Of a DNA stretch of 64,000 bases, positions 1 to 64,000 are shown piece by piece. Numbering within the stretch: the stretch's first letter is position 1; each line of letters begins with the position of its first letter. The translations under genes were made by a program, and so were the position numbers. The notes below the pieces were generated by a model, which saw nothing but the letters and a program-made list of their open reading frames with translations, was not told where the DNA came from and searched no databases. The DNA is from an uncultured Bacteroidota bacterium (lineage in GTDB: Bacteria > Bacteroidota > Bacteroidia > Bacteroidales > P3): contig CADCEC010000011.1 of NCBI GenBank assembly GCA_902800395.1, positions 28,265 to 92,264 on the forward strand, read 5' to 3'.

Positions 1-1
1 T

Positions 2-202
2 TATAGGTTATGGGTTATGGATGGCCGCATCGTGGTTGAAGGGGCGGAAGGTGCTACGGCCGCACTCTACACCGTCGACGGCCGCCAACTCTCGCAGTGG
101 AAAGTGAAAAGCGCAAAGTGGACAGCCAATGTCAGCAGCCTCCCCACTGGCGTCTACATCCTCAGTCTCGACGGCAACGGCCGGAAGATAGTCATTAGAT
201 AA
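2..202 (+). CDS. C-terminal end of a T9SS-exported protein (partial)
   Basis: The frame is open from the window edge and ends at TAA (200-202), so only the last 66 codons are present. The residues form a type A T9SS sorting domain: an ALYTVDGRQL strand, then LPTGVYILSL, ending in KIVIR. In this family the domain directs export across the outer membrane and is then removed or anchored. The first 20 bases are a GGTTATGG-type repeat, and the stretch at 98-122 (GTGGAAAGTGAAAAGCGC) is a heptamer-type repeat coding QWKVKSAKW. Both repeat types recur elsewhere in the window. The function of the missing passenger is unknown. Confidence 0.8.
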   Translation, partial: YRLWVMDGRIVVEGAEGATAALYTVDGRQLSQWKVKSAKWTANVSSLPTGVYILSLDGNGRKIVIR

Positions 203-221
203 ATGAAAAGATGCTTAAGGA

Positions 222-355
222 ACTCTGAAGAGATGCGTACGGAAGAGTGAAGAGTTCCGTACGGAAGAGCGCAGAGTTGCGTACGGAACTCCCAAGAGAT
301 GATAGTTATTCTCTGCAAAGATGATAGTTATTCTCTGCAGAGATGATAGAGGAAG
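222..355. repeat. Mixed short repeats after the first gene
   Basis: Three copies of a GCGTACGGAA/TTCCGTACGG motif alternate in orientation. They are followed by two tandem copies of a unit of about 21 bp (GATGATAGTTATTCTCTGCA) at about 299-342 and a third partial copy. No coding potential is seen in 203-406. Confidence 0.7.
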
Positions 356-406
356 AATAAAAAAACAGTTAAACACATTTTATAAACAATTAAAACCTCA
401 ACAACA

Positions 407-1228
407 ATGAAAAAAATGTTTATGGTGCTCGCCGCCACCGTCATCTGCGGCGCTTGCCTCTTCACCTCCTGCAAGAAGGACGAGGACAACACCAGCCTCA
501 ACCTAGAGGAAAAGATTATCGGGAAATGGATCACCGCCGAGAGCGACGGGGAGGCTCTGCCGACCAATATGAAAATCGTTTTCGACATCGTCTCCACCAC
601 CGAGGCCTATGTGAGTCTTTCCATTCAGGATAGAACGGCAGAAGACACCCCTTGGAGAGATCGGGAAGAGACCGATGTGGAAATAAATGGCAATGACGTG
701 ATCCTCTCCCATAGTCCTAAACCCGGCATGACTGTGATGGTTGCACTCCACATCGAGTCCATCACGGACGCGACCCTGATCGCCAAGCGCACCGTTACCA
801 TCCGGCAAGACGGCGGTTTGGTGAGATCCACAGAGAACAGGGTCCGCTACGAAAAGCTGAACGTGGACTACAGAAATGCCATCTGTGGCATGTGGGAAGG
901 CATGAGCACCGGCAGCGAGGGCTCGGAGTTCGACGACGGCGAAAACCACCGCTGGGAATACCTCCTGGACGGCACCTTCAACTACTTCCGCAAGGTCAAC
1001 GGCCAGTGGCAGATCAGCGACGACGACTATGCCGACTACTTCGTGGCAGGCACCCTGCTCTGCACCCGCTGGAAGAACGCCGGCGCCGGCAACGAGGAGC
1101 ACCGCGAGTGGTGGGAGATCGAGAGCATCGAGAACGGCGTGATGAAGTGGAAAGCCCTGCGCCAGCGCGAGGACGGCACCACCTACACCGCCACCTTCCA
1201 GATGGTCAAAGTGCCGGCGAACAAATAA
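407..1228 (+). CDS. Two-domain lipocalin-like lipoprotein
   Basis: 273 residues. A type II signal peptide ends in lipobox FTSC (Cys about 22) followed by KKDED. The mature part appears to hold two related halves of lipocalin-like type. One starts at IIGKWITAES and the other at ICGMWEGMSTG; the second has the usual WEYLLDGTFNYF and late YTATFQMVKV strands. That pattern is common in Bacteroidales lipoproteins of unknown function. ATG at 407 is chosen because it gives MKKMFMVLAAT directly before the hydrophobic core. It is the first of three small lipoprotein genes in a row, and no function can be assigned. Confidence 0.7.
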   Translation: MKKMFMVLAATVICGACLFTSCKKDEDNTSLNLEEKIIGKWITAESDGEALPTNMKIVFDIVSTTEAYVSLSIQDRTAEDTPWRDREETDVEINGNDVILSHSPKPGMTVMVALHIESITDATLIAKRTVTIRQDGGLVRSTENRVRYEKLNVDYRNAICGMWEGMSTGSEGSEFDDGENHRWEYLLDGTFNYFRKVNGQWQISDDDYADYFVAGTLLCTRWKNAGAGNEEHREWWEIESIENGVMKWKALRQREDGTTYTATFQMVKVPANK

Positions 1229-1288
1229 TAAAAATTGAACCCCTTTGCCGGCCGAGGGGAGACCCCTTGCCGGCAACTAAATGAAAAT

Positions 1289-1987: not shown

Positions 1988-2091
1988 GTGAAATGAGAAA
2001 TGAGAAATGAGAAATGAGAAAATATTAATAAAATGGAAGTTAAAGAAGTTAGAGAAGTTTTTCGCTAAATGAATTTGTTTTCAGCGGTGCT

Positions 2092-2900: not shown

Positions 2901-2977
2901 TTGTTATTCGTTTGTTGTTCGATTAAAAAACGAACAACAAACGAACAACAGACGAACAACAGACGAACAACAAATGA
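2901..2977. repeat. Inverted decamer arrays (CGAACAACAA)
   Basis: Left arm 2901-2921 reads TTGTTATTCGTTTGTTGTTCG. After a 9-nt AT spacer, five direct copies of CGAACAACAA/CAGA follow (2931-2977), so the arms are reverse complements and can fold. It lies between convergent genes (2759 and 3083). Apart from this and the terminator, 2760-3082 holds nothing recognisable. Confidence 0.75.
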
Positions 2978-3082
2978 ATATATAAGCAAGTTAACATTAT
3001 CCAAACAGATTCTCCTTCCGCCATCACCTTCGCGTTGGCAAAGAAAATAAATTTGGTGGAACCGGGATTTTCAATCCTCAAC

Positions 3083-5455
3083 TCAGAACGTCAGCGTGGC
3101 GCCCAGGCAGACGAGGATGGGGAGCTGGTTGACGCGCTCGAAGGTGATGCGGTTGAAGTAGAAGATGTTCTCGCGGCTGTAGAGGTTGGTGGCCGAGAGG
3201 CTGAGCTCGAGGATGGAGCGGGTGCCCAGGGAGAATTTACGCTTCACGCCGACATCGAGACGGTGGTAGCTCGGCAGACGGCCTTTGTAGAGGTCGGCAT
3301 AGTGGATGCTGTATTCGCCATTTTCCTGCGTGTAGTCGGAGACGATGCTGCCACCGAAGAGCAGCTGGGAGAAGATGCCCTGGGTCTGAGTGAAGGGGTA
3401 TCCGCTACCGAAAGTCCAGCGGGCGCTGACCTCCCATTCGCGCCATTCGCCGAGGGCGTAGGTGGCGAGGATGTTGACGGTGTGGCGGCGGTCGTAGTGG
3501 GGGTTGTAGGTCTGAATCTCGTTGCTGCGCTCCACGAAGCCCAGAGAGTATGTGGCCCAGAGGTAGAGCCGCTCGAGGTCGGCACGCATGCTGAAGTCGA
3601 AGCCCGAGGCATAGCCCTCCTCGATGATGTAGTCCTTGCGGAGGTATTCGGGCTGTGCGTACTGGCCGCTGTTATAGACGGGGTCGTTGTCGTCGTAGAT
3701 TTTGTTTCGGTTGGCGTTGAGGAGCTGGTCGAAGTGCTTGTAGTAGAACTCGGCATTCAGCGTGATATGTTCCGTAAGGTCGTATTCCACGCCGAAGACG
3801 GCATGTTTGGCCTGCTGCACGCAGGTGGTGATGTCGTTGCCGCGGAAGGTCGAGGGCACGTTGAGGTCGGCGGAGCCTGTGAGGAAGCCGTTGAAGAGGT
3901 TGACGATGTCGTTGTCGGAGCGCGCGTCGAGGAATATCTGGCTGTAGAAGCCGCCGGCGAATTTGAAGCGCAGGTTGTCCATGGCGTTGTATTTCACCGC
4001 CAGGCGAGGTTCGAGATGGAAGCTGCCGAGGGTGGCGTAGGAGATGAGGCGGAGGCCCGGGTCGATGAGCCACTTGCCGGCGTTCCACTTGTAAGTGGCG
4101 AAGAGGGAGAGGGAGGTGGAGGGCTCGCGCTGCGAGATACGTTTGTTGTAACTGTTGACGAACTGGTAGTCGGTGCTGTAGCCCTCGATGCTGAGGCCGT
4201 ACTTTATCTTGTTCTGGCCAATGAAGTTGGTAATCTGCATCTGGGCGTTGAAGCCGCCTATCTCGCTGTATTTTTTGTCGTTGCTGCCGTCGTCGAGGGA
4301 GATGTTGTACTTCGAGTAGGCCACGCTGCCGTCGAGGATGGCGGAGGCGCCGGTGACGAGCATGAAGTTGGTCCCCGCGCCGTAGTTCTGCCAGTGGTAG
4401 TCGGCGATGGCCTGGTAGTGGTTGACTTTGTCGTCGAAGCGGAAGCCGAAGAGGTTGAGCTTGCTGCCGGTGCCGGAGTTGATGGAGAGCTTGCCGTAGA
4501 GGTCGAGGAAGTCAAAGGGCAGGCCGCCGTCGACGTAGGGGTAGAACCACTCGGAGGTAGTGGAGAGGTAGGAGTTCTTGGCGGTGAGGAGGTAGGAGAT
4601 GGTGGACTTGGAGGTTTCGCTCTCGCGTTTCAGGGGACCTTCGAGGATGAGGCTTGCGCCGAAGGTGTTGATGCCTATCTTGCCGCTGTGGTGGCGCTTG
4701 TTGCCGTCGCGGGTGGTGATGTCCATCACCGACGACAGGCGTCCGCCGTATTCGGCACCGAAACCGCCGGTGTAGATGTCGGCATTGAGGATGACGTCGG
4801 TCTCGAAGATGGAGTAGAGGCCTATGGAGTGGAAGGGGTTGTAGACGATCATGCCGTCGAGGAGGCAGAGGTTCTGTATCATGGAGCCGCCGCGGATGTA
4901 GAGCTGGCCGCCCTGGTCGCCGGTGGAGCTGACGCCCGGCAGCACCTGCATGTACTGCGCGATGTCGGCGGTGCCGCCGATGGAGGGCATCTGCTGTATC
5001 TGTGCCGCACGGATCTTCTCCACGGAGACCTGCGTCTGCATCTTGCGCTCTTCGATGCGGTTATCGGTGATTTCTACGGCTTTGAGGGTCTGCGCCGTGG
5101 GCTTGAGGTGGATGGTGAGGGTGACGGTCTTGTTCTTCTTCAGGGTCAGTTGCTCGGTGTATTCCTCATAGCCTACATACTTCACTTTCAGTGTGTAGCT
5201 TCCTTCCGGCACCTTGTTGATGAGGAAGAAGCCGTTGATGTCGGTAGCGCAACCGTGGGTGGTTTGTTTCTCTACATTCGCTCCCGAGGGGTCGCGTTCG
5301 TAGAGAACCACGTTCGCGAACGGTACAGCCTCACCATTCTTCTCATCGAACAGCACACCCTTCACGGTACACTGCGCTGATGCAGAAATGAAGAATGAAG
5401 AATGAAGAATGAAGAATAAGCTTGCGCAGAAGAATATTTTCAGATGTTTTATCAT
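3083..5455 (-). CDS. TonB-dependent receptor with carboxypeptidase-regulatory-like N-terminus
   Basis: 790 residues. Signal peptide 1-28 ends SASAQ; its FFILHSSFFIS part is encoded by a GAAGAATGAAGAATGAAG repeat (about 5391-5420). Residues 29-112 are a CarboxypepD_reg-like domain (GVLFDEKNGEAVPFANVVLY, GFFLINKVPEGSYTLKVKYVGY). The plug follows (ADIAQYMQVLPGVSSTGDQGGQLYIRGG, then GFGAEYGGRLSSVMDI) and a long outer-membrane barrel ends in an aromatic residue (GATLTF). Members import nutrients using TonB energy, but no SusD-like partner is adjacent, so the substrate is unknown. The gene precedes holA's 3' end on the same strand by context only. Confidence 0.88.
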   Translation of the reverse strand: MIKHLKIFFCASLFFILHSSFFISASAQCTVKGVLFDEKNGEAVPFANVVLYERDPSGANVEKQTTHGCATDINGFFLINKVPEGSYTLKVKYVGYEEYTEQLTLKKNKTVTLTIHLKPTAQTLKAVEITDNRIEERKMQTQVSVEKIRAAQIQQMPSIGGTADIAQYMQVLPGVSSTGDQGGQLYIRGGSMIQNLCLLDGMIVYNPFHSIGLYSIFETDVILNADIYTGGFGAEYGGRLSSVMDITTRDGNKRHHSGKIGINTFGASLILEGPLKRESETSKSTISYLLTAKNSYLSTTSEWFYPYVDGGLPFDFLDLYGKLSINSGTGSKLNLFGFRFDDKVNHYQAIADYHWQNYGAGTNFMLVTGASAILDGSVAYSKYNISLDDGSNDKKYSEIGGFNAQMQITNFIGQNKIKYGLSIEGYSTDYQFVNSYNKRISQREPSTSLSLFATYKWNAGKWLIDPGLRLISYATLGSFHLEPRLAVKYNAMDNLRFKFAGGFYSQIFLDARSDNDIVNLFNGFLTGSADLNVPSTFRGNDITTCVQQAKHAVFGVEYDLTEHITLNAEFYYKHFDQLLNANRNKIYDDNDPVYNSGQYAQPEYLRKDYIIEEGYASGFDFSMRADLERLYLWATYSLGFVERSNEIQTYNPHYDRRHTVNILATYALGEWREWEVSARWTFGSGYPFTQTQGIFSQLLFGGSIVSDYTQENGEYSIHYADLYKGRLPSYHRLDVGVKRKFSLGTRSILELSLSATNLYSRENIFYFNRITFERVNQLPILVCLGATLTF

Positions 5456-9613: not shown

Positions 9614-11919
9614 TTCTTTCTGTTGTTTTTCTTGGTTTTTCTGTCCCCAGACTTCCGTTTGGGGTTACTGTGCGGGCGCTCCCTCCGGGAGTTTTTGGAA
9701 GAGGGCCTTATGAGGTCGTCCTCTTCCACGAGGTCGAAGTCTATCTGCTTCTTGAGGAGGTCGACGCGGCGGACGCGGATATGCACTGGGTAGCCGAGCT
9801 TATAGGTGCGGCCGTGACGGCGGCCGATGACCTGATAGTTGTCCTCGTCGAGCATGTAGTAGTCGTCCTTGAGGCTGCCGATGGGTATCATGCCCTCGCA
9901 CTTGTTGCCCTCGATTTCGGCGTAGATGCCCCACTTGCTGACGCCGCTGATGAGGGCAGGGAAGACCTGTCCCAGCTTGTCGGCAAGATATTCGGCTTGC
10001 TTGTATTTCACGCTGGTGCGCTCAGCATCTGCGGCTTTCTTCTCCATGATGGAGCAGTGCTTGCAGTAGTCCTCGTACTCAGCAGCCTTGACGGAGGTGC
10101 CGCCTTGCAGGTAACGTTCGAGGAGGCGGTGCACCATGAGGTCGGGGTAGCGGCGGATGGGGGAGGTGAAGTGGGTGTAGTAGGGGAAGGCGAGTCCGTA
10201 GTGGCCGATGTTCTCGGTGCTGTAGTAGGCTTTTGACATGGTGCGGATGGCGATGGTGTCGACCATGTGCTCCTCGCCGCGGCCGGCGATGTTTTCGAAG
10301 AGACGGTTGTAGCTCTCTGCCAGTGCCTTGCGGCTGGAGGTCTTCATGCTGAAGCCCAGCTTGGCGACGAACTCGACGAAGGTGTTGAGCTTCTCGGGGT
10401 TGGGCTCGTCGTGGACGCGGTAGACGAAGGTTCTAGTATTTCTAGATTTACTAGTAGCACTAGATTTACTAGGTTTTCCTATATACTCTGCCACGGTCTT
10501 GTTAGCCAGGAGCATGAATTCCTCGATAAGCCAGTTGGCCTCCTTGCTTTCCTTGATGTAGACGCCGATGGGTTTGGCGTTTTCGTCGAGTTGGAATTTC
10601 ACCTCCTGGGTCTCGAAATTGATGGCTCCGCTCTTATAGCGTGCAGCCCGCAGCTTCTCCGCAATGCTATGCAACTTCAAAATCGCCTCTCCTACCGGTT
10701 TTCCACTTTCCACTTTCCACTTTCCACTTTCAATTATCTCCTGCGCCTCCTCGTAGGCCATACGGCGGTCGCTCTTAATCACGCTCTTGCCCATCCAGGT
10801 ATCGTAAACTTTGCCTTTGCTGTCCATCTCCATGACGACGGAGAAGCAGAGTTTCTCCTCGTCCTGACGGAGGGAGCAGACCTCGTTGCAGAGTTTCTCG
10901 GGGAGCATGGGGATGGTACGGTCGACGAGGTAGACGCTGGTGCCGCGCTCGTAGGCCTCGCGGTCGATGGCGCTGCCGGGCTTCACATAATAGCTCACGT
11001 CGGCGATATGTACGCCCACCTCCACGTGACCATTCTCTAGCTCGCGGAAGGAGAGGGCGTCATCGAAGTCTTTGGCATCGGCAGGGTCGATGGTGAAGGT
11101 GGTGACATCGCGAAAATCACGTCGCGAGGCAATCTCCTTTTTTGTGGGTTTCTTAATCTTTTTGGCCTCCTCTTCGACCTCCTTGGGGAAGTCGAGCGGG
11201 AAGTCGTACTCGGCGAGGATGCTCTGCATCTCGACGTTGTTGTCGCCGGGTTTTCCGAGGCGTTTGACGACCTTGCCCACGGGGTTGTTCATGCGCTCGG
11301 GCCAGTCGGTCATCTCCACCAGCACCTTCTCGCCGTTCTCTGCGCCACCGAGGTCATCGATATGGATGAAGATATCCACGGGCATGGTGCGTGAGTCGCT
11401 GACCATAAAGGCGAATCGTTCTTGTTTCTGTATCACGCCCACGAAGCGAGTTTTGGCTCGCTTGATGATTTCCACCACCTGTCCCTCGGGCTTGTGCATC
11501 TTGCGTTGGGGGAACATCAGCACCTTCACGGTGTCGCCATGGAGGGCGTGGTGGGTGTTGTTGGGGGCAATCTGGATATCCTCTCCAAGGTATTGCCTTG
11601 TCTCCTTATCTCCTGTCTCCTTGTCTCCTTCACGGATCACATAGGCTTTGCCGCCCTGTTTCATGTCGATGGTGCCGACGACATAGTTCTGCGGCAGCAG
11701 CTCGTCGTCGATGGACTTGGGGTTGATCTTGTATTTGCCTTTGTGGCTGTCCTCGACGAGGTGTTTCTGCTCGGCAAGTTCCTGAATGGTGCGTATCACC
11801 TCCTGACGCTCGGCTTTGCTGTTGGCGCCGATGCGCGAGGCAATCTGCTTGTGGTTGTAGGCGTCGAAGGGATTGTTGGCAAAGATTTTGAGTATCTGTT
11901 TTGCTAATTGTTCATTCAT
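9610..11919 (-). CDS. rnr: Ribonuclease R
   Basis: 769 residues. N-terminal winged helix (1-70), cold-shock OB folds, the RNB catalytic domain with FTIDPADAKDFDDALSF (metal-binding Asp residues), then a C-terminal S1 domain (about 640-725) and a Lys/Arg-rich tail. It degrades structured RNA 3' to 5'. Three in-frame tandem-repeat segments stand out: EGDKETGDKETR (about 97-108), SGKWKVESGK (about 396-408) and SKSSATSKSRNT (about 481-496). Each comes from a different repeat family and sits between conserved blocks. The reading frame is intact, so the enzyme is probably active. Confidence 0.92.
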   Translation of the reverse strand: MNEQLAKQILKIFANNPFDAYNHKQIASRIGANSKAERQEVIRTIQELAEQKHLVEDSHKGKYKINPKSIDDELLPQNYVVGTIDMKQGGKAYVIREGDKETGDKETRQYLGEDIQIAPNNTHHALHGDTVKVLMFPQRKMHKPEGQVVEIIKRAKTRFVGVIQKQERFAFMVSDSRTMPVDIFIHIDDLGGAENGEKVLVEMTDWPERMNNPVGKVVKRLGKPGDNNVEMQSILAEYDFPLDFPKEVEEEAKKIKKPTKKEIASRRDFRDVTTFTIDPADAKDFDDALSFRELENGHVEVGVHIADVSYYVKPGSAIDREAYERGTSVYLVDRTIPMLPEKLCNEVCSLRQDEEKLCFSVVMEMDSKGKVYDTWMGKSVIKSDRRMAYEEAQEIIESGKWKVESGKPVGEAILKLHSIAEKLRAARYKSGAINFETQEVKFQLDENAKPIGVYIKESKEANWLIEEFMLLANKTVAEYIGKPSKSSATSKSRNTRTFVYRVHDEPNPEKLNTFVEFVAKLGFSMKTSSRKALAESYNRLFENIAGRGEEHMVDTIAIRTMSKAYYSTENIGHYGLAFPYYTHFTSPIRRYPDLMVHRLLERYLQGGTSVKAAEYEDYCKHCSIMEKKAADAERTSVKYKQAEYLADKLGQVFPALISGVSKWGIYAEIEGNKCEGMIPIGSLKDDYYMLDEDNYQVIGRRHGRTYKLGYPVHIRVRRVDLLKKQIDFDLVEEDDLIRPSSKNSRRERPHSNPKRKSGDRKTKKNNRKK
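10431..10478. repeat. CTAGATTTACTAG-type repeat inside rnr
   Basis: Tandem units built on TCTAG/ACTAG code SKSSATSKSRN in frame on the minus strand. A related short array lies at about 18527-18556 inside the FAD oxidoreductase gene. Confidence 0.75.
10701..10736. repeat. Heptamer array (TTTCCAC) inside rnr
   Basis: Four to five tandem copies of the heptamer code SGKWKVESGK on the minus strand. The same heptamer array occurs at 17626-17656 and 28950-28976. Confidence 0.88.
11596..11632. repeat. TCTCCTTA/TCTCCTG array inside rnr
   Basis: CTTGTCTCCTTATCTCCTGT-type array coding EGDKETGDKET. It is the same family as the intergenic arrays at 50577-50611 and 51087-51222. Confidence 0.8.
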
Positions 11920-17350: not shown

Positions 17351-19008
17351 AACAGTTACAGATAGACCTCATCCCCGAGGAGTACGCCTCTCCTTCCTCT
17401 GTCCGCCGCGCGGTGGCGCAAGCCATGGGTGTTCGGGAAGACGAGCTAGAGCCCTTCCGCATCACTCGCCGCAGCATCGACTGCCGCCGCCGTCCCCTGT
17501 ATCATTGCACCGTGGAAGTGGAAAGCGGAAAGTGGCACCCCGAAGGGGAACTGAACACCTTGGAAAAGAAAAAAAATGTAGTGAAGAAAGTGGAAAACGA
17601 TGCAAAACAGACCGCGGCAGCCGATCTTTCCACTTTCCACTTTCCACTTTCCACTAAACAAGTCCTCATCGTCGGCGCCGGCCCCGCCGGCCTCTTCGCC
17701 GCCCTTAGGGCGCTGCAGCTGGGCATGAAGCCCATCATCGTCGAGCGCGGCAAGCCCGTGGAGGAGCGCAAGAAAGACATCGTCTCCCTCGTGCGCACCA
17801 AGGAGGTGAACCCCGACAGCAACTGGTGCTTCGGCGAGGGCGGTGCCGGAACCTACAGTGACGGCAAGCTCTACACCCGTTCCACCAAGCGCGGCGATGT
17901 CAGTCAGGTGCTGCGCCTCTTCGTGGAACACGGCGCCGATCCCGACATCATGGTCGACGTCCACGCCCATATCGGCACCGACCGCCTGCCGGCCATCATC
18001 GCCAGCATGCGCAAGACCATCACGGAGGCGGGTGGCGAATATCATTTCAACACCCGCGTCACCGACCTCATCGTCAAGGACGGCCGCGTCTGCGGTGTGG
18101 TTACCGCCGCCGGCGATGAAATTGAGGCCGACGCCGTCATCCTCGCCACCGGCCACTCTGCCCGCGACATCTATGAACTCTTCACTCGTCGTGGATGGCT
18201 CCTCGAAGCTAAACCCTTCGCCCTCGGCGTCCGCGTCGAGCACCCGCAGGAACTCATCAACGAAATACAATACCACGGCAAGAACTACTCTAAACTACTC
18301 CCCCCCGCCACCTACAGTCTCACCACCCAAGTATACTCAAACAATCAAACAACCAGACAATCAAGCAATCAACACGGCGTCTTCTCCTTCTGCATGTGCC
18401 CCGGTGGCGTCATCGTCCCGGCCGCTACGGCAGGAGGACAACAGGTGGTCAACGGCATGAGCAACGCCGCCCGCAACAGTGGCTTTGCCAACAGCGGCAT
18501 CGCCGTGACCGTCGGCAGCGAAGATATTTCTAGCATATCTAGAGAATCTAGCCCTACCAGCCTCCTGGATTTCCAGAAATCCGTCGAGCGTCGCGCCTTC
18601 GAGGCCGCCGGCAACACCATCGACGCCCCCTCGCAACGCCTCGTGGATTTCCTCCGCCGCAAGCCCTCTTCGCGCCTCAACAAAAGCAACTATATGGGCC
18701 ACTGCGTCAGCGCCCCGCTGCACGAGATACTGCCCGACTTCGTCGTCGACTGTCTGATACAAGGTTTCAAGGATTTCGACCGCAAGATGCGCGGCTTCAT
18801 CACCGAGGAGGCCTCGCTGCTGGCCGTCGAGAGCCGCACCTCGTCGCCCGTGCGCATCCCGCGCGACAAGGAAACTCTCCAGCATCCACAGCTGCAGGGA
18901 CTCTACCCTTGCGGCGAAGGCGCCGGCTACGCCGGCGGCATCGTCAGCTCAGCCCTCGACGGCATCCGCTGCGTTGAGGCTATTGGCATGCTGCACTCCC
19001 GTCAATAA
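17347..19008 (+). CDS. FAD-dependent oxidoreductase with repeat-bounded insert
   Basis: 553 residues. A short N-terminal domain (to about residue 58, CTVEV) precedes the Rossmann fold LIVGAGPAGLFAAL (about 109-122). Later come GEGGAGTYSDGKLYTR, a second nucleotide-site motif ADAVILATGHSARDIYEL and a C-terminal GLYPCGEGAGYAGGIVSSALDGI. This is the layout of the uncharacterised NAD(P)/FAD-dependent dehydrogenase family. Between the two N-terminal parts lie about 45 extra residues bounded by inverted heptamer arrays (17511-17656). Two more repeat-coded stretches are SNNQTTRQSSNQ (18336-18373) and ISSISRESS. The frame overlaps uvrB by 4 bp and the convergent gene by 29 bp. Confidence 0.82.
   Translation: MKQLQIDLIPEEYASPSSVRRAVAQAMGVREDELEPFRITRRSIDCRRRPLYHCTVEVESGKWHPEGELNTLEKKKNVVKKVENDAKQTAAADLSTFHFPLSTKQVLIVGAGPAGLFAALRALQLGMKPIIVERGKPVEERKKDIVSLVRTKEVNPDSNWCFGEGGAGTYSDGKLYTRSTKRGDVSQVLRLFVEHGADPDIMVDVHAHIGTDRLPAIIASMRKTITEAGGEYHFNTRVTDLIVKDGRVCGVVTAAGDEIEADAVILATGHSARDIYELFTRRGWLLEAKPFALGVRVEHPQELINEIQYHGKNYSKLLPPATYSLTTQVYSNNQTTRQSSNQHGVFSFCMCPGGVIVPAATAGGQQVVNGMSNAARNSGFANSGIAVTVGSEDISSISRESSPTSLLDFQKSVERRAFEAAGNTIDAPSQRLVDFLRRKPSSRLNKSNYMGHCVSAPLHEILPDFVVDCLIQGFKDFDRKMRGFITEEASLLAVESRTSSPVRIPRDKETLQHPQLQGLYPCGEGAGYAGGIVSSALDGIRCVEAIGMLHSRQ
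17511..17656. repeat. Inverted pair of heptamer arrays inside a conserved gene
   Basis: Left arm GTGGAAGTGGAAAGCGGAAA (from 17511), about 90 bp of in-frame spacer, then right arm of four to five CTTTCCA units (17626-17656). The arms are reverse complements. The spacer codes a Lys/Glu-rich stretch. Confidence 0.85.
18336..18373. repeat. CAATCAAA-type array inside the oxidoreductase gene
   Basis: AACAATCAAACAACCAGACA then ATCAAGCAATCAAC, coding SNNQTTRQSSNQ. Its reverse complement type recurs at 51888-51921 inside another gene. Confidence 0.75.
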
Positions 19009-32564: not shown

Positions 32565-32599
32565 ATTACAATTTATTTAATAATTCCTAATTTTTCTAT

Positions 32600-33742: not shown

Positions 33743-33782
33743 TTAATATTCTTCATTCTTCACTCTTCATTCTTTACTTTAA
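33743..33782. repeat. CTTCATTCTTCACTCTTCATTC repeat at a stop codon
   Basis: The array supplies the last codons and the TGA of the secreted protein gene that ends at 33760. Same family at about 5391-5420. Confidence 0.75.
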
Positions 33783-34607: not shown

Positions 34608-34646
34608 TGTCTATAACCAATAACCCATAACCAATAACCTTTATTA
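34608..34646. repeat. ATAACCAATAACCCATAACC repeat at a stop codon
   Basis: Directly follows the stop of the 34644 gene. Its distal end GGTTATTGGTTATAGACAA is shared with 46254-46285. Confidence 0.75.
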
Positions 34647-35908: not shown

Positions 35909-35925
35909 AATAACACATAACTCTT

Positions 35926-35956
35926 AACTATTAACTTTTAACTCTTAACTATTCTC
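35926..35956. repeat. CTTAACTATTAACTTTTAA repeat
   Basis: AACTCTTAACTATTAACT-type array next to the tRNA 3' end. Same family at 38963-39003, 53143-53171 and 58290-58358. Confidence 0.7.
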
Positions 35957-36130: not shown

Positions 36131-36180
36131 CATTTGTCCTTTCACTCCCTTGCACTCCCTCTCACTCCATTTCACTCCCT
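36131..36180. repeat. GGAGTGAAA array starting at a stop codon
   Basis: On the minus strand: stop TAG, then GGAGTGAAATGGAGTGAGAG units, then the tail GGACAAATG. The same arrangement occurs at 50030-50078 and 55387-55440. Confidence 0.85.
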
Positions 36181-38186: not shown

Positions 38187-38223
38187 AACCTTTAACCTTT
38201 AACCTTTAACCGTTAACCTTTAT
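38187..38223. repeat. CCTTTAACCTTTAACC array at a stop codon
   Basis: Four to five AACCTTTA units. On the minus strand the array supplies the last codons and TAA of the nitroreductase gene (AAA GGT TAA). Confidence 0.8.
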
Positions 38224-38962: not shown

Positions 38963-39003
38963 TATCTATAAACTTTTATCTATTATCTATTAACTATTAA
39001 CTA
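38963..39003. repeat. TATCTATTAACTATTAAC repeat at a start codon
   Basis: Begins directly upstream of the nitroreductase ATG. Same family as 53143-53171 and 58290-58358. Confidence 0.7.
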
Positions 39004-39047: not shown

Positions 39048-39129
39048 CATTTGTCCAGTACTTGTCCAGTATTTGTCCGGTGATTCACTGGACAACAACT
39101 GGACAACATACGAACAACAAACGGACAAA
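39048..39129. repeat. Inverted decamer arrays (TTTGTCCAGT / ACTGGACAAC)
   Basis: Three ATTTGTCCAGTACTTGTCC-type units, an 11-nt spacer, then ACTGGACAACAACTGGACAA and CGAACAACAAACGGACAA. The arms are reverse complements. Organised like 2901-2977 and sharing its CGAACAACAA unit. Confidence 0.75.
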
Positions 39130-39207: not shown

Positions 39208-42200
39208 TTACTTTAATATCACGTGTTGCACCGCCGTGCCTTGTCGGGTGTGGATGCGCAGCAGGTAGCTGCCAGCGCTCAAGGTGAACGGTGAGAGGTG
39301 AACGGTGAACGGTGAGCTGTCAACTTCTGAAGAGAAGATTCTGCGGCCGTTGAGGTCGAAGAGCTCCACGGAGAGGATGTCGTCGGCATCGATGGTTAGC
39401 AGGTCGGTGGTGGGGTTGGGGAATATATTAATTTTGAATTCTGAATTCTGAATATCGAATATTCCCACTTGGTTGATTGTCAGTATCAGCGTCACGGAAC
39501 TGTCGCAGCCTTCGACAGTTTCTCCGGTCCAAGTGTAGGTGCCACTCTCGGTGTAGGTGGTACCGTTCCAAGTATAGCTGCCTTCGGCGGTGTCTGTTAC
39601 CGTAGTCTCAGCGCTGTGGTTGATGGTGAGGTGCAGGGTGAGGATGCTGTCGCAGCCGTCGGCGGTGACATTCCACCACCGGTGTTCGTAGTTGCCTGAG
39701 ACATCGTAGCCCATGTGGCCGTACCAGACGAACAGGTCGCAGGCCGTCGCTGTGGTGTCGGAGGTGGCGCTATAGTTGACTGTGAGGTGGAGCGTGAGGA
39801 CACTGTCGCAGAACTGGCTGTTCATGTTCACCGTGTCGCGATAGGTGTAGTCACCGCTGGCGGTGTATACGGCGCCGTTCCAGTCCCACTGGTAGCTGTC
39901 GCAACTGACGGCAGACATCTCGCCGTAGGTGGTGTAGTTCACTGTGAGGTCGAGGAAGAAGATGCTGTCGCAGCCCACGGTGTTGGGGACGATGAGGTAT
40001 TGGACGCCGTAGGCCGAGGCGGTGTAGGTGGTACCGTACCATGTAAGGCTGTCGCAGACCTCCTCGTCGACTATCACGGTGTCGTTGTGGTTGATGGTGA
40101 GATAGAGCGTATCGTCCTGCGTGCAGCCGTGAGCGTCAGTGTGAGTGTAGTGGTACGTGCCCGAGGTGGTGATAACGGCCTCCTGCCAAGTGTAGCTGTC
40201 GCATGCCGTCACCGTGGTGGCGGTGTGGACGGGGTTGTTGATGGTGAGGTTGAGGGTCGCGATGCTGTCGCAGCCAGCGGTGTTGGTGGTGGTGTCGATG
40301 TACTGACCGCTGAAATACCGCCATTCCCCATCCCAGAAATAGGCCTCGCAAGCCGTATCAGTTAGAATTGAAAATTGAGAATTGAAAATTGTGAGATGCA
40401 GGGTCACCGTGCTGTCGCAGCCCGCGGCGTTGGTGTAGATATGCGTAGCACTATCCGTGCTATTAGTGTAATTCATGTTCCACCAAACAAAGCTGTCGCA
40501 AGCCGTAGCCGTGGTATCGCCAGTGGTGCTGTAGTTGATAGTCAGATGCAGCGTCACAGTACTGTCACAGCCTTGGGTGTTGGCGCCGACAAATAAATGC
40601 GTATGAGAATCTGTGCTTTCTGTGATATCTGTGTACTCATACCATGTAAAACTGTCGCATGCCACCGCCGTGGTATCTTCGGTGGTGCTGTATTTGACAA
40701 AGAGATAGTGTGAGACGATACTATCGCAGCCATCCATGGTACTGAGGGTGTCCATCAGGATGGTGTCGATGGTATAGATGGCTCCATTCCATGTGTAGCT
40801 GTCGCAGACGGTGATGCTGTCGCTGCCGGCGGCAGGTGTGCAAGGAATAGCTGCAAACACAGGGAATCCACCATTCACATTAGCCGAGTCCGCCGCCCAA
40901 TGACGGTAGATACCAGCTGTGTCATTGGCATCCACCCAGGCGTTGAGTGCGGTGAGAAGGTCGGTGTAAGTAGAGTCCCCAATGGTGACCGAGGAATTCA
41001 ATGCGCCATTATTATCAAATGTGGCGGTGTCAGACAAGACAAAATCGAAAACAAGCCAAGTGTTGGCTCTACCTCTGAAAGGAATGCCATCTGCATATCT
41101 TGCATATACATTATGCATTTCTCCGTCAATACTGATATGGCCTATTGACAAACCTGTGGAATTATAATAATTCGTACTGTCATACTCCACATTTCCTGAA
41201 CTATAACAATTTGAAATCACACCTTGACTTGTACCGACCAAGCCTCCTCGTAACGACATAGGCATTTTCCCAACAGAATAGATATCACACGATGAATAGC
41301 AATTGTTGATGACAGCATCATTCGACTGAATGCCACCAATCAGTCCGCCAGCATTTTGGTCTGCAAAGATAACTCCCGAGGTAGAACAATTTTTTATGAT
41401 GGTTTCGATATTATACATCGACGGTATAACGCCACCCAATCCTCCGACGAAATAACGTCCGCGAACCAACGCATTGTCAATATTGCAATTTTCAAAGAAA
41501 CCACCATATCCTTGACCGAACAAACCACCCACACTTTCCCGTCCAGAGAAAACACCATTCTTAATTGTGATATCGCGTATGGTGCATTGACACCAGTTTC
41601 CGAGAAAACCAATATATGCCGAATTCTCATCAGACATGGATTCTCTACAAATAATATTGGATATAGCGTGATTGTTTCCCTCTATAGTGCCCAGGAAATA
41701 ATCCAGAGGCTTCCATCTGTATGCACCCATATCAATATCATTTACAATAGATACAGTCCTCCCCTCGAAAGAATTCCACTGATTTAAATAATCCAAATAT
41801 GCCAAACCTTCGGCCGAAGAAATGGTCACATTGCCTCCATCATCTTCCACGTATCCAGCCGGACACTGAGTAACTATTTCAGTCCAATATTTTTTATCCA
41901 CATAGAGTTTGACAGGCTGGCTCCAGCCTACGGTGTCGTCTTCGTTGCAAATTGGACGAACCGAAAAATAATACGTATGCCCCAACATAAGATTTTCAAC
42001 AGTGTCGTTGGGAGCGAAAACGCTATAAACAACAGCATCGTTTTCAGAAGCGTCTTCTTCGACGTATTTCACTTGCCATTGTTCCGCATCACCATTCTCA
42101 TTCCAAGACAATGCCACTGCTGTTCCGTCATTGAATGCAATATTGGAAGCCATAATATTGCTTACATTTGGACACGTCGGTTCATAATACCCGCCCAAAA

Positions 42201-46253: not shown

Positions 46254-46285
46254 TGTCTATAACCAATAACCTATAACCATTAACC
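46254..46285. repeat. CTATAACCAATAACC repeat at the fabZ stop
   Basis: On the minus strand the fabZ stop TAA is inside AAGGGTTAATGGTTATAGG. The far end GGTTATTGGTTATAGACAA matches the array at 34608-34646. Confidence 0.78.
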
Positions 46286-49120: not shown

Positions 49121-50032
49121 ATGAATAGTGACCCTACGTTAAATATTACTACAATCTGCCGCTATCTGTCCCGTAGCAGTTCTATTTTCCTTTTCTTGGC
49201 ATTTAGTCTTCTCTTCGCTGTCGTCCTTGTGGTTTTCATTCAGCCGGTGGGCGTTTTGTCCAATACCACCCAGCTCTCCTCTATGTCGCCCGTGGCCCAG
49301 TTGGCGCTGATTACAGTTGCGGGTTATCTTACTGTGCTCATTAGCAGGGTTGTACTTCATCTTGTTGCTCGCCGTCATACGCTCTCTCCGATGGTTTATG
49401 CTATCTGGATTGCCATAGAGCTCATGTTTTGTGTGGCTTTTTCATCCTTTTTTGCATGGATTGTGAGTGGATGTGGCTCGGTGAAGATTGGCCCTCTTGC
49501 AGGCGATATATTTCTGGGGAATATTGCTGTCTTCTTGATTCCTAATATTATAGCATTCCAGGACTTCCGTATCCACGAGCTTAAGGCAGAACTCCGTCGC
49601 TCCCAGGCGCCTTCGCAGACTGTTCCTATTTCTCCTTCACTGCCCGACCAGCACATCAATTTCTATGAGAAGGGAGGTAGGCTTGCCCTCACCACCCGTT
49701 GCTCCAATGTGCTCTATATTGAGGCGGCCGACAACTATGCCAATATTCATTATATTAATGAAGGGAAAGAAGATGCTTTTATCCTTCATAATACATTGAA
49801 GGACATTGAAAAGGATTGCCTCGCCATGGGGCTCCTCCGCTGTCACCGCGGCTATATGGTGAATGTGGAGAACGTGAAACTGATGCGTAAAGAGCGTGGT
49901 AATCTGCTACTTGAGATTAACCACACCCCTAAGATTATCCCCGTCTCAAAGAGCTATGCGTCGGATGTCATTAATTTCTTCTCCACCAACAATGCCTCCG
50001 CCCCCCTCTCCGGCCCCATCCCTGTTTTATAG
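49121..50032 (+). CDS. LytTR-domain membrane regulator
   Basis: 303 residues from ATG 49121; an in-frame ATG at 49019 would add 34 residues of low-complexity sequence. Four membrane segments (FLFLAFSLLFAVVLVVF; LALITVAGYLTVLIS; WIAIELMFCVAFSSFF; IFLGNIAVFLIPNIIAF) precede a cytosolic LytTR DNA-binding domain (VLYIEAADNYANIHYIN, GLLRCHRGYMVNVENVKLM, PVSKSYASDVINFF). Such fused regulators sense envelope signals; the target is unknown. The stop codon TAG is the first unit boundary of a repeat array. Confidence 0.85.
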   Translation: MNSDPTLNITTICRYLSRSSSIFLFLAFSLLFAVVLVVFIQPVGVLSNTTQLSSMSPVAQLALITVAGYLTVLISRVVLHLVARRHTLSPMVYAIWIAIELMFCVAFSSFFAWIVSGCGSVKIGPLAGDIFLGNIAVFLIPNIIAFQDFRIHELKAELRRSQAPSQTVPISPSLPDQHINFYEKGGRLALTTRCSNVLYIEAADNYANIHYINEGKEDAFILHNTLKDIEKDCLAMGLLRCHRGYMVNVENVKLMRKERGNLLLEINHTPKIIPVSKSYASDVINFFSTNNASAPLSGPIPVL

Positions 50033-50078
50033 GAGTGAAAGGGAGTGAGTGGGAGTGAAATGGAGTGAAAGGACAATA
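50030..50078. repeat. GGAGTGAAA array at the LytTR gene stop
   Basis: TAGGAGTGAAAGGGAGTGAG units, then the tail AAAGGACAATACC. Sense orientation relative to the gene, as at 36131-36180 and 55387-55440. Confidence 0.85.
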
Positions 50079-50576: not shown

Positions 50577-50611
50577 TCTTATCTCCTTATCTCCTGACTC
50601 CTTATCTCCTA
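50577..50611. repeat. TTATCTCCTTATCTCCTGAC array before rlmH
   Basis: TCTTATCTCCTTATCTCCTG and so on, ending 5 nt before the rlmH ATG. Opposite orientation to the array after rlmH. Confidence 0.75.
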
Positions 50612-50615
50612 TAAA

Positions 50616-51089
50616 ATGAATATCAAACTAATCGTTGTCTCCAAGACGGATGTGCCGTATCTGCAGACGGGCATCGACGAGTATGTCGGGCGGTTGAAGC
50701 ACTACTGCGACTTCGAGCTGGTGGTCATCCCGGCGTTGAAAAATCTGGGCAAGGCCTCGCCCGAGGAAGTCAAGGAGCGCGAAGGACAGCTGATTCTCAA
50801 ACAGGTGGAGAAGAGCGACATGGTGGTGCTATTGGATGAGCATGGGAAGGAATACGGCTCGGTGGAGTTCTCGGAATATCTTCAGAAACAGATGAATACC
50901 GGCATCCGCACCCTCTCGTTCGTCGTGGGTGGTGCTTACGGCTTCTCGCCGGCGGTCTATGTTGCCGCCCAACATAAAATCTCGCTCTCGCGGATGACCT
51001 TCAACCATCAGATGGTGAGGCTTTTCTTCGTAGAGCAACTCTATCGTGCCTTCACCATCCTGAGGCACGAGAAATATCATAATGAGTAG
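50616..51089 (+). CDS. rlmH: 23S rRNA pseudouridine1915-N3 methyltransferase
   Basis: 157 residues, the usual length. VVLDEHGKEYGSVEFSEYL, SFVVGGAYGFSPAV (SAM-binding knot) and the diagnostic C-terminus MTFNHQMVRLFFVEQLYRAF then RHEKYHN. It methylates helix 69 of 23S rRNA after ribosome assembly. The stop TAG runs straight into a 135-bp repeat array. Confidence 0.95.
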   Translation: MNIKLIVVSKTDVPYLQTGIDEYVGRLKHYCDFELVVIPALKNLGKASPEEVKEREGQLILKQVEKSDMVVLLDEHGKEYGSVEFSEYLQKQMNTGIRTLSFVVGGAYGFSPAVYVAAQHKISLSRMTFNHQMVRLFFVEQLYRAFTILRHEKYHNE

Positions 51090-51222
51090 TGAGGAGGTAA
51101 GGAGATAAGGAGGTAAGGAGTCAGGAGATAAGGAGGTAAGGAGATAAGGAGATAAGGAGGTAAGGAGTCAGGAGATAAGGAGGTAGGGAGATAAGGAGTA
51201 AGGAGATAAGGAGTTAGGAGAT
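51087..51222. repeat. Long GGAGATAAGGAGGTAA array between convergent genes
   Basis: About 15 units of AGGAGATA/AGGAGGTA/AGGAGTC. It spans from the rlmH stop into the last codons of the opposing gene, whose TAA lies within the array (ATCTCC TAA CTCC). Confidence 0.9.
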
Positions 51223-52173
51223 AAAGTGGGAGAGGAAACGGGGACGGAAACGATAGACCTCAAAGAAAGGGGTCTGGGTGGTGCCGAAAGTGCGGTAGAA
51301 ATATTCGTTTCCTTTGTCCATGCTTCCTTCGAAATCAAATGCTTGTGTCTTCCCGGAGAGGTGACGGATAATCTGCCAGAAGAGGTATGTTTGGCTGTTG
51401 CGTGGTGCCTCAGGGGTGATGGCCGACATCTGCGCATAGGCGCAACGGTCGTCATAGACCACGAAAGAGACATTGACGGGCTTTCCTTCTGTGTTGCGTA
51501 ATGCCCAGAGGAGACCCTGTCCGCGTTCAAGGGCGGTGCGGCAGACGCGCTCGATGAGCTCTTGTGAGAGCAGGTCCTCGCCCTTTTTCCGTTCGAAATA
51601 CTCGCGGTGCATGCGTGCGAACTGTGAAGGCTCGAAATGGGTGTCCAACGTGCAGCAGTTCTCCACGTCGGCCATATTCTGTTTGCGGCCGCGTGAGGCG
51701 GCGGCAAAGAGGGTATCGGGGTCGGCGATGGAAGGGAAGCGGTAGGTGTAGCGGGTGGTCTGTTGATAGCCGGCCCAGCGGAAAGGCAGCCAGTCGGTGA
51801 CGGTGGGGGAGAAGTGCATCAGGCAGAGGCGGGCACCCAGGGCGTTGAGCTGCGCCGCCAGGTCGCCGCCTACACGGTGCTCGAAATCGATGATTGCTTG
51901 ATTGCTTGATTGCTTGACTACCTGAGTGTCAGGGTAGTTATACCAAGGGCCGCAGAACTGCGTCAGCTGTGGCTGCAGGATGTATTTCAAGCCGAACTTG
52001 CGTCCGATGAGGTAGGGGAGGGCACCTTCGATGCGGCCGTCGCGCTGGCTCAGCAGCACGTCCCACTGCTTCCCCTCGCAGACTGTCTCCATCCACCAAT
52101 ATTGCTGAAACAGAGGGATTCGCGACCCCTCTGCTTCGCATAATTGTTTGTATTTCTCCTTGTTACTGCTCAA
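51214..52173 (-). CDS. GNAT/FemAB-like acyltransferase
   Basis: 319 residues. The only plausible start is TTG 52173, because a stop (TAG) lies four codons upstream and the next Met is at residue 28. Features fit a FemAB-like GNAT fold: FQQYWWMETVCEGKQWDVLL, ASRGRKQNMADVENCCTLD, FARMHREYFERKKGEDLL, NVSFVVYDDRCAYAQMSAITPEA and FDFEGSMDKGNEYFYRTFG. The last motif is frequent in Bacteroidetes proteins of this type. The substrate is unknown. VVKQSSNQAII is coded by an ATTGCTTG repeat. Confidence 0.7.
   Translation of the reverse strand: MSSNKEKYKQLCEAEGSRIPLFQQYWWMETVCEGKQWDVLLSQRDGRIEGALPYLIGRKFGLKYILQPQLTQFCGPWYNYPDTQVVKQSSNQAIIDFEHRVGGDLAAQLNALGARLCLMHFSPTVTDWLPFRWAGYQQTTRYTYRFPSIADPDTLFAAASRGRKQNMADVENCCTLDTHFEPSQFARMHREYFERKKGEDLLSQELIERVCRTALERGQGLLWALRNTEGKPVNVSFVVYDDRCAYAQMSAITPEAPRNSQTYLFWQIIRHLSGKTQAFDFEGSMDKGNEYFYRTFGTTQTPFFEVYRFRPRFLSHFIS
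51888..51921. repeat. GATTGCTT array inside the acyltransferase gene
   Basis: GATTGCTTGATTGCTTGATT and so on: four units coding KQSSNQAII on the minus strand, between two conserved blocks. Its complement type is at 18336-18373. Confidence 0.8.
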
Positions 52174-53139: not shown

Positions 53140-53142
53140 ATT

Positions 53143-53171
53143 CTTAACTCTTAACTATTATCTATTATCTG
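53143..53171. repeat. TTAACTATTATCTATTATC repeat at the ftsE stop
   Basis: On the minus strand GACAGATAATAGATAATAG: the ftsE stop TAA is inside the array, which then runs to the next gene's start. Confidence 0.8.
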
Positions 53172-55386: not shown

Positions 55387-55440
55387 TATCATTTGTCCTT
55401 TCACTCCCTTTCACTTCTTTTCACTTCCTTTCACTCCCTC
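55387..55440. repeat. GGAGTGAAA array after trkH copy 2
   Basis: Minus strand: GAGGGAGTGAAAGGAAGTGA units, then the GGACAAATG tail, starting a few bases after the stop (55445). Third example with the same unit, tail and orientation. Confidence 0.85.
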
Positions 55441-58249: not shown

Positions 58250-58358
58250 GATAAGGTTTAACGGTTAAAGGTTAACGTTTAAGGTTGTGTTAACTCAACT
58301 TTTAACTCTTAACTTTTAACTTTTATCTATTAACTATTATCTATTATCTATTATCTTA
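58250..58358. repeat. Two array families between trkA and the next gene
   Basis: TTTAACGGTTAAAGGTTAAC units (58257-58283), then TTTTAACTCTTAACTTTTAA and ATTATCTATTATCTATTATC units to 58358. The second array codes the last residues (IIDNR) and the stop of the gene at 58337. Confidence 0.85.
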
Positions 58359-63084: not shown

Positions 63085-63100
63085 ATTCGGTGTTACTTTA

Positions 63101-63220
63101 CATTTTTTGGTACGACTTTTAAGGTGTAGTCAACATTTTTATTGGCGACTTCTATGTAATAAACCGCACTTTTTTGTATGACTTTTTGTTCGTTTAATAC
63201 ACTTTTCTGTACGACTTTTT
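63101..63220 (-). repeat. Three 20-nt direct repeats in the ATPase leader
   Basis: Minus-strand copies: AAAAAGTCGTACAGAAAAGTG (63220-63200), AAAAAGTCATACAAAAAAGTG (63187-63167) and AAAAGTCGTACCAAAAAATG (63120-63101). They lie between the predicted start site and the start codon, spaced 33 and about 67 bp apart. Confidence 0.8.
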
Positions 63221-63227
63221 TAAAATG

Positions 63228-63235
63228 CAAAGATA
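63228..63235 (-). promoter_or_regulatory. TAnnTTTG element of the AAA ATPase gene
   Basis: TATCTTTG on the minus strand, implying a leader of about 140 nt. From 63236 to 63440 the DNA is AT-rich with no gene; TTTCAGCGGTGCTCA at about 63372 also occurs at about 2079. Confidence 0.6.
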
Positions 63236-63440
63236 CAACTTTATTTTAAAACGGCAAAATAAATAATATTTTGCGTTTAAAACGCACCCCATTTGACCAG
63301 CAATAAAAGTTTTTCATACACCCCACAGGATTCAAAAAAATTCGCTTAATTATACGCTGTATTTGATTTATTTCAGCGGTGCTCATCACCCTTTCAGGGG
63401 TCGCATAATTCGCTGACAGAAAGAGAGCCGTTCGCCGTCG

Positions 63441-64000
63441 TCAATGGATGAGCAGTTTCTTGGTTGTGGGGCCGGCGGGGGTGGTGATACGCAGTAGGTA
63501 GGTGCCGCGGGGCCATTCGATAGTGGAAAGTGGGAAACTGAAAGTGGAAAGTTGGGGGCTTTCGTAGATGCGGCGGCCACGGAGGTCGTAGGCTTCGATG
63601 CGAGAGATGCCGAAGGAGGAGGTGATGCGTACGCTGTTTCTGGCGGGGTTGGGGGCCACGTTGGTGTAGCGGTAGATAAGGTCGTTGGGCTGGAGGCCCA
63701 CGCCGGGGTCGCCGCCGGGGATAACGATGACGCTGTCGCCGGGGTTGACGACGAGGGTGTCGTCGCCGATGATGACGGGCTCGCCCGGGATGACGATGAC
63801 GGTGTCGCCGGTGTTGACGATGGTGTCGCCGCCGATGACGAGGGTGTCGCCGGGAAGGACGACGAGGGTGTCACCGGGGTTGACGACGGTGTCAATGGGA
63901 TTGACGGTGGTGTCAATAGGGTTGACGGTGGTGTCGGGCGGGGCGAGAATGGGGAAGAGGAACGGGTGCATCACGTATGGAAACCATCCGTAATGCCAAC
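63441..64000 (-). CDS. C-terminal part of a T9SS protein with a repetitive linker (partial)
   Basis: The frame is open to the window edge, so the gene starts outside. The first visible residues are followed by about 75 residues of degenerate 8-9 residue repeats built on VNPxDT / PGDTxVI (VNPIDTVVNPGDTLVVLPGD), a stalk-like, acidic, Pro-containing linker. A type A sorting domain follows (YTNVAPNPARNSVRITSS, EAYDLRGRRIYE, PRGTYLLRI, TTKKLLIH). LSTFSFPLSTI in the sorting domain is coded by a heptamer array (63519-63556). Confidence 0.8.
   Translation of the reverse strand, partial: WHYGWFPYVMHPFLFPILAPPDTTVNPIDTTVNPIDTVVNPGDTLVVLPGDTLVIGGDTIVNTGDTVIVIPGEPVIIGDDTLVVNPGDSVIVIPGGDPGVGLQPNDLIYRYTNVAPNPARNSVRITSSFGISRIEAYDLRGRRIYESPQLSTFSFPLSTIEWPRGTYLLRITTPAGPTTKKLLIH
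63519..63556. repeat. Heptamer array inside a sorting domain
   Basis: ATAGTGGAAAGTGGGAAACT then GAAAGTGGAAAG. Read on the minus strand as LSTFSFPLSTI, at a loop of the T9SS domain. Confidence 0.8.

Follow-up and report, generated by a model that had tools for sequence, protein, structure and literature searches.

The DNA considered here is a window of 64,000 nucleotides (positions 28,265 to 92,264) of contig CADCEC010000011.1, called C11 below, in the genome assembly GCA_902800395.1 (G000). This genome, 2.4 Mb in size and 95% complete, is a rumen-type Bacteroidales metagenome-assembled genome (MAG), and the nearest named relatives found were Bacteroidales MAGs, mostly with rumen or gut names. 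Short tandem arrays, most often of 7-bp units, lie at gene ends, between genes, in signal-peptide regions and within enzyme genes of the window, and an 83-bp module carrying such units at its ends is found within the gene of a FAD-dependent oxidoreductase (Table 1).

Arrays were detected by scanning periods of 6 to 12 at score cut-offs of 10, 11 or 14; Tandem Repeats Finder returned 111 rows for the window, overlapping one another. At a score of at least 14 the window contained 20 arrays, compared with none in 12 Markov simulations (six of order 2 and six of order 4). A sequence-only reading of the window had counted arrays at more than 35 places, a number that is reached at the looser cut-off of at least 10, with 40 arrays. 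At a score of at least 11, 179 arrays were found in 464 kb of G000, a nonrandom sample of selected stretches, many of them from contig starts, versus 3 (order 2) and 1 (order 5) in simulated sequence of the same size. A larger sample of 864 kb, containing the first, held 313 arrays, the relative G009 had 57 in 400 kb, and 18 loci of more distant Bacteroidales had 15 in 226 kb. Period 7 was the commonest (97 of the 179 arrays), and several units that the sequence-only reading gave as 8- or 9-mers are really 7-mers or 10-mers. The median copy number of period-7 arrays in G000 was 4.3 to 4.7, and those in coding sequence (median, 4.3) peaked at 4 to 5 copies, with intergenic copy numbers more spread. 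The arrays exceed chance and composition, and they are dispersed. An assembly artefact or chimera is extremely improbable as their source: almost all of the named records found are MAGs, which would suit an artefact, but arrays are present in numerous MAGs that were published separately, records from different projects behave in the same way, and reading frames are kept in the genes for CTP synthase and methionyl-tRNA synthetase.

The arrays crowd at gene ends. Six stop codons that had been attributed to arrays (33760, 38213, 46280, 51214, 53165, and 58337) all lie wholly within them, and of the arrays said to begin at or near a stop, those at 32628 and 34644 leave gaps of 4 and 5 bases and those at 50032 and 51089 overlap it by 1 and 2 bases. 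Placement was assessed for the 179 arrays of the 464-kb sample against 200 uniform random placements, first with longest-ORF (open reading frame) gene calls and then with codon-trained calls, because the former misassigned the strand in at least one case (28147-28893 for 28231-28977). Arrays touching a stop numbered 39 of 179 (null mean, 6.7; maximum, 17) with longest-ORF calls and 36 (null mean, 6.5; maximum, 15) with codon-trained calls, so the predicted enrichment at stop codons is borne out under both sets. Intergenic arrays were likewise in excess (93 versus 20.8 and 102 versus 27.3, respectively), and 86 or 77 of the 179 lay in ORFs. Only 2 arrays overlapped a start codon itself under either set (null means, 5.1 and 4.8). 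The enrichment expected in signal peptides was not found relative to uniform placement: the first 35 codons held 17 arrays versus 15.0 with longest-ORF calls and 10 versus 14.7 with codon-trained calls, which tend to clip array-coded N termini. Gene ends are therefore confirmed as a favored class and signal peptides are not, although arrays nonetheless form the signal peptides of several single genes. At domain borders, two arrays adjoin the starts of type IX secretion system (T9SS) sorting domains (array at residue 1776, domain at residue 1785; array at residue 1885, domain at residue 1895), and T9SS sorting tails are present on three window proteins.

Reading frame and stop content further sort the arrays. 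Among units with a period not divisible by 3 and with stops in both orientations, a single array was coding, while 23 were at stops and 16 were intergenic (1, 20, and 19 with codon-trained calls). Units of such periods that are stop free in one orientation occurred in coding sequence 40 times, 38 of them in the allowed orientation (30 of 32 with codon-trained calls). Away from stops, 64 of 80 coding arrays had a period not divisible by 3, namely, 7, 8, 10, or 11; with codon-trained calls, the proportion was 56 of 72. Selection sorts the arrays, which remain mainly at gene ends, in intergenic DNA, in tolerant loops and in stop-free orientations, a pattern expected of purifying selection; the crowding at stops together with this sorting bears out the earlier proposal that selection keeps arrays where proteins tolerate them.

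Unit repertoires are largely private to genomes, and the preferred unit varies among species of one genus. Pairs of arrays shared a unit in 400 of 14,212 comparisons within genomes and in 327 of 99,492 between genomes, that is, 8.6 times more often within; the genomes were unequally sampled, within-genome pairs less than 1 kb apart were left out, and L021, L033, L035, and L086 were removed as duplicates. When units were shuffled within each period, at most 216 within-genome pairs were shared in 200 runs. Omission of G000 left 54 of 2,387 within and 136 of 49,427 between, and for 11-mers the values were 33 of 407 and 8 of 4,823. A pattern of three AAAGTGG units had 50 overlapping matches at 43 places in G000 and 34 matches in G078; three other genomes had 2, 2, and 1, and 56 of the 61 family genomes had none, while the backward control gave 3 matches in G000 and 4 in G083. 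The GCAATCAA pattern gave 10, 7, and 3 matches in three genomes and none in 58. In the sampled part of G009 no AAAGTGG array was present, and the commonest unit was the 11-mer GGTAGGGAGTT (7 of 57 arrays). When AAAGTGG sites of G078 were compared with all 43 places in G000, only 1 of the 21 examined coincided, at ubiE (1 of 20 in an earlier tally; the 21 include two loci with compound arrays, and one match, C30:24711, was left out), and 6 of the 21 had any homologous G000 stretch among the loci compared. The AAAGTGG unit is therefore shared while its sites mostly are not.

Single sites tell of the same turnover. The variable loop of RNase R is filled, depending on the species, by AAAGTGG, AAAGGTG, AAAATTG, AAAGCGG, or AAAGGGAGTG arrays or by none. 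Three sites in a gene for a Mur-ligase-type protein, which we take to be folC-like, hold differing units across species, one of them with identical length. Array units turn over likewise in signal peptides; at the TonB-receptor-like site (5387-5417), relatives have CAATTTT or CACTCCC-type arrays or no array. In the FAD oxidoreductase linker before the Rossmann motif, many species have a low-complexity patch of their own. It has been suggested for TAACTGA repeats (PMC4679880) that such heptamers serve as regulatory or nucleoid-protein binding motifs under selection, and the position bias towards gene ends would agree with this. We regard that explanation as quite improbable for the present arrays: preferred units vary by species and lie within enzymes in both orientations, start codons themselves are not favored, and sites are mostly unshared.

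Genes with coding arrays include, by Pfam domain, those for CTP synthase, methionyl-tRNA synthetase, LpxB, a CoaBC-like flavoprotein, UbiE, phosphorylases, and others, in addition to the Mur-ligase-type protein. With an equal chance of expansion for every 10-bp seed, 0.86 AAAGTGG arrays would be expected in the 464-kb sample, and 23 were seen. Sequence-blind slippage alone is therefore no explanation, and the statement that simple slippage would not give the same units at distant sites stands. Orthologous intervals, available for part of the arrays, allowed 34 to be compared, of which 26 had an array-less counterpart. In all 19 coding comparisons the length change was a multiple of 3, zero included; where the period was not divisible by 3 and the change was not zero, 8 of 10 changes were no multiple of the unit. 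In CTP synthase, thirteen residues of G000 correspond to four in G002, the closest relative that lacks the array (90% identity); the change, +27 bp, is not divisible by the 8-bp unit length, and no seed above background is present in the interval of G002. The seeds at the CTP synthase, methionyl-tRNA synthetase, and GNAT genes were 4, 5, and 3 bases long, versus 3.5, 3.8, and 3.7 in shuffled sequence.

The 83-bp module at 17514-17596 shows that sequence has also moved between coding genes. It is 90 to 95% identical across three genes, and its 59-bp core was found in seven copies of at least 94.5% identity and one weak copy in the stretches searched. Six core copies run in the sense direction of the ORFs that contain them, whose domains are UbiE, FAD oxidoreductase, Dus, GNAT, GHMP kinase, and NUDIX; the seventh lies antisense to an ORF that matches no Pfam family. 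Three of the ORFs read the module in one frame, with a shared peptide, and three in a second frame; five of its six frames are stop free. At the FAD oxidoreductase site, the module was present in none of 20 orthologous matches spanning the site, each of which reaches at least 15 residues past it and some of which represent the same genome twice. A related module core occurs in another species (L066). The presence of a module tipped with AAAGTGG in six unrelated enzyme ORFs indicates that DNA was copied between loci. Of the sequence-only proposal that some process copies or inserts array seeds, copying is supported for the array-tipped module; change of copy number in place is also seen, at 1990 relative to L017. 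The interpretation given by the sequence-only reading is, overall, partly supported. Two unrelated genes, 28231-28977 and one at L100:10688, have in common a signal-peptide stretch encoding VSIAFHFPLST, with its AAAGTGG array and neighboring bases; this is perhaps a second copied module. At L110:8800-10650, AAACTTT arrays form a cluster in which they alternate with a GGCGGTGCCGGCGGTTGTTTTTGGG segment.

Arrays of 11-mers differ from 7-mer arrays in their pairing. An inverted partner within 150 bp was found for 45 of 103 11-mer arrays, versus 3 in the reversed control, and for 18 of 199 7-mer arrays, versus 10 in the control. Long inverted 11-mer hairpins with genome-specific units occur at L065:9620-9755, which folds strongly (z, -18.3), at L048:9365-9450, and at the G009 loci L119, L125, and L129; the hairpin ends of L065 and L048 resemble ACCAAC...GTTGGT. 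The inverted 11-mer hairpins are possibly a separate element class. Miniature inverted-repeat transposable elements have terminal inverted repeats and a target-site duplication; most direct arrays here are without an inverted partner, and 45 of the 103 11-mer arrays have one. A dedicated mobile element, in which a candidate recombinase or transposase would move array-tipped modules and paired inverted 11-mers and leave bare arrays as remnants, is distinctly unlikely in our estimation. The array units on both ends of the module and the excess of inverted 11-mer pairs fit such an element, and the private units look like element families. Non-array sequence, however, is common to only 48 of 623 array flanks, the inverted-partner excess of the 7-mers is small, and no constant end or target-site duplication was noticed in an inspection by eye; the enzyme search covered reverse transcriptase only.

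The reading that we favor, with about even confidence, treats the arrays as very small selfish or mutational DNA, a population confined to one clade that spreads by array-templated copying together with local expansion. The copying step would be array-templated template switching: at a stalled fork or a break, the nascent strand would move onto one of the many existing arrays, copy some tens of bases with slippage, and then return. Common units would be copied most, so that the rich would get richer and each species would drift to its own dominant units, and local expansion would later tune copy number. We propose template switching because it needs no special gene, would make private units a frequency-dependent outcome, leaves no constant ends, and allows an array-bounded segment to ride along. 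What is copied may be short seeds or whole arrays. More tentatively, and with a confidence short of even, we suggest that short arrays act as their own template and spread without a transposase, that they introduce peptide patches peculiar to each species into essential enzymes, and that they at times take a coding module along from gene to gene.

Several other causes were considered and set aside. Telomerase-like synthesis by a reverse transcriptase was rejected as a general cause; the RVT_1 domain was found in 9 of 21 genomes and not in the other 12, which include the array-rich G001, G002, and G004 (each 98% complete). Loss of the PolA flap nuclease and loss of MutS were also rejected, since 19 of 21 genomes, with G000 among them, have the nuclease and all 21 have MutS. 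Phages or plasmids as vehicles showed no special link to the arrays in searches of plasmids and viral contigs. A 33-base AAAGTGG array had no plasmid match. In the viral-contig scans, AAAGTGG arrays turned up in 6 stretches, compared with 1 and 13 for two heptamers of equal composition and 7 for AAAATTG, so that AAAGTGG has no special viral link; GCAATCAA arrays turned up in none. A megablast comparison of a single window gene with phages gave no match, and PHROGs searches with five window genes gave nothing bearing on the arrays. One viral contig of 14.8 kb and 43% GC (L341) carries three AAAGTGG arrays and other heptamer arrays.

A number of observations weigh against array-templated copying. 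Of the 623 array flanks, 575 have nothing in common with the rest; most arrays therefore travel without their neighbors, and a local origin is possible case by case. In the GNAT ORF (L380), the module is close to the ORF start and only the C-terminal part is covered by the Pfam match, so this may be a damaged gene and not a clean fusion. Junction microhomology was examined at 7 left and 5 right junctions, leaving the template switch as a proposed step, and G000 itself has one reverse-transcriptase match. Some intervals scored as array-less contain decayed arrays. Seeds were on average longer than in shuffles (5.7 versus 4.1), which fits local slippage for part of the arrays and keeps some local origin likely, and several RNase R arrays are compatible with local E-S-G, E-N-G, or E-G codons. 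These last two findings also favor a purely local explanation, in which tandem duplication and slippage act everywhere and genome-specific sequence preferences of the replication machinery promote certain units. The copy-number change in place at 1990 and the coding period-7 peak at 4 to 5 copies, expected if only a gain of three units keeps the frame, agree with it, and heptamers are reported to outnumber every other class of repeat in most bacterial genomes (PMC4679880). We nevertheless consider it unlikely that slippage accounts for everything, as AAAGTGG is 27-fold above the seed expectation and is not special in viral contigs, the preferred unit differs among species of one genus, several sites have no above-background seed, and the copied 83-bp module cannot come from slippage.

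The arrays of the window are listed in Table 1. The array pair at 28893-28975 codes the whole signal-peptide region (MKVESGKWKVLVLVCVSIAFHFPLSTSHSASAQ) of an outer-membrane beta-barrel gene, 28231-28977, and the DNA around it (28885-28985, 7-mers) folds strongly (z, -7.8); the array region at 33640-33780 gave no strong fold. A tRNA gene (35958-36028, minus strand) is flanked by two different arrays (35918-36178), and a SPOUT methyltransferase gene is bracketed by GGAGATAA arrays in opposite orientation (50578-50610 and 51088-51224). Gene 39208-45108 encodes a large Peptidase_C10 protein with a Spi inhibitor domain and a T9SS tail. Elsewhere in the window are a cobalamin riboswitch at 11976-12168 (Rfam RF00174), dispersed repeats of 103 to 167 bp at 59102-59247, 61505-61607, and 63401-63564 with 91 to 97% identity to other places in the genome, and imperfect 21- to 24-bp repeats at 63713-63936.

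Table 1. Tandem arrays and the dispersed module in the 64,000-nucleotide window
Feature	Position	Strand	Remark
GAAATGA 7-mer array, 2 bp past a stop	1990..2021	.	Relative L017 shorter at same place
11-mer AAACGAACAAC array, arm of intergenic hairpin	2928..2978	.	2860-2985 folds, z -5.2
AATGAAG 7-mer array coding signal-peptide region of TonB-receptor-like gene	5387..5417	-	
AAAGTGG array in variable RNase R loop (ESGKWKVESGK)	10700..10731	-	
83-bp dispersed module (VESGKWHPEGELNT.EKK) within FAD-dependent oxidoreductase, AAAGTGG units at ends	17514..17596	+	
CCACTTT array in FAD oxidoreductase linker, directly before Rossmann motif	17626..17655	+	
CAATTTT array adjoining T9SS C-terminal sorting domain	22184..22210	-	
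AAAGTGG array pair in opposite orientations, 26-bp core between, hairpin	28893..28975	-	
7-mer and 11-mer arrays coding N-terminal signal region of 30045-32564	32470..32550	-	
ATAACCC array near stop 32628	32596..32624	.	
GGAGATAA 8-mer array coding N-terminal signal region of 32628-33719	33653..33693	-	
Array giving stop codon 33760	33748..33774	-	
AAATTGA and GGAGTGAAAG arrays coding N-terminal signal region of 33760-34596	34482..34565	-	
ATAACCA array near stop 34644	34613..34639	.	L159 without array
TTAACTN array next to tRNA gene (35958-36028)	35918..35950	.	
GGAGTGAAAG array between tRNA (35958-36028) and stop 36179	36138..36178	.	
AACCTTT array giving stop of 38213-38962	38187..38222	-	L159 without array
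TTATCTA/TTAACTA array	38961..39003	.	
Inverted pair of 11-mer TTGTCCAGTAC-type arrays, hairpin	39051..39128	.	39040-39140, z -5.3
AATTCTG array directly before T9SS sorting domain of 39208-45108	39430..39453	-	
CAATTTT array within Peptidase_C10 gene 39208-45108	40366..40391	-	
ATAACCA array giving stop of FabA-like gene	46257..46285	-	
GGAGTGAAAG array starting at a stop	50032..50072	.	
CTTATCTC array upstream of SPOUT methyltransferase gene 50616-51089	50578..50610	.	
GGAGATAA array after SPOUT gene 50616-51089, opposite orientation, giving stop 51214	51088..51224	.	
GCAATCAA 8-mer array in GNAT-like gene	51891..51917	-	+24 bp relative to L159; no above-background seed in L159
Array giving stop of ABC-transporter ATPase gene	53142..53170	-	
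CCTTTCACTC 10-mer array close to a gene end	55397..55439	.	
Compound GGTTAAAG / TTAACTATT arrays giving stop of 58337-58969	58253..58357	-	

This clade bears on the way in which dispersed heptamer repeats spread. The rumen clade offers many sequenced species with differing units, so that gain, loss, and source can be placed on orthologous sites. Frame-keeping arrays with periods not divisible by 3 occur in usually essential enzymes, an outcome to be expected only rarely from stepwise slippage, and one module has passed from coding gene to coding gene. Were the copying array templated, new peptide sequence would have a way into proteins that requires no transposase.

Repeats of this kind are known in outline from heptamer families, TAACTGA repeats, in-frame Rickettsia elements, and Borg repeats. 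Among the titles listed in a search of the literature, none described such arrays in Bacteroidales, Bacteroidetes, or rumen genomes, with many journals outside its coverage. The short tandemly repeated repetitive (STRR) sequences of cyanobacteria are comparable dispersed repeats. Dispersed heptameric tandem repeats are described for Xanthomonas (GGGAATC) and Nostoc, and those of Xanthomonas lie mostly between the same genes in two species (PMC4692102). As there, one heptamer of G000 is found at many loci (AAAGTGG, 23 arrays in 464 kb and 43 places) in about four units and with an intergenic excess; those systems differ from G000 and its relatives, in which tens of units coexist, repertoires differ among species, a large share lies in ORFs, and sites are mostly unshared. 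The TAACTGA direct repeats of Beggiatoaceae have a single unit located mostly directly upstream of starts, and the authors suggest horizontal transfer but see no evident mechanism (PMC4679880). They too are dispersed heptamers whose coding sites are restricted by stop-codon logic, but in G000 there are many units, and gene ends are occupied more than start codons themselves. Rickettsia palindromic elements are small in-frame repeats in unrelated metabolic genes that encode a conserved peptide (PMC10969869). The 83-bp module resembles them in being a small repeat, in frame, in unrelated metabolic genes and with a common peptide, the GNAT case possibly being a damaged gene; those elements are palindromes of about 150 bp, and the module is 83 bp long and has tandem-array tips, and bare arrays are far more numerous. 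Borg tandem repeats (PMC9879509) are genome specific, fast evolving, and located within and between genes, and their unit lengths in ORFs are all divisible by three, whereas in G000 the unit length of 64 of 80 (or 56 of 72) coding arrays is not.

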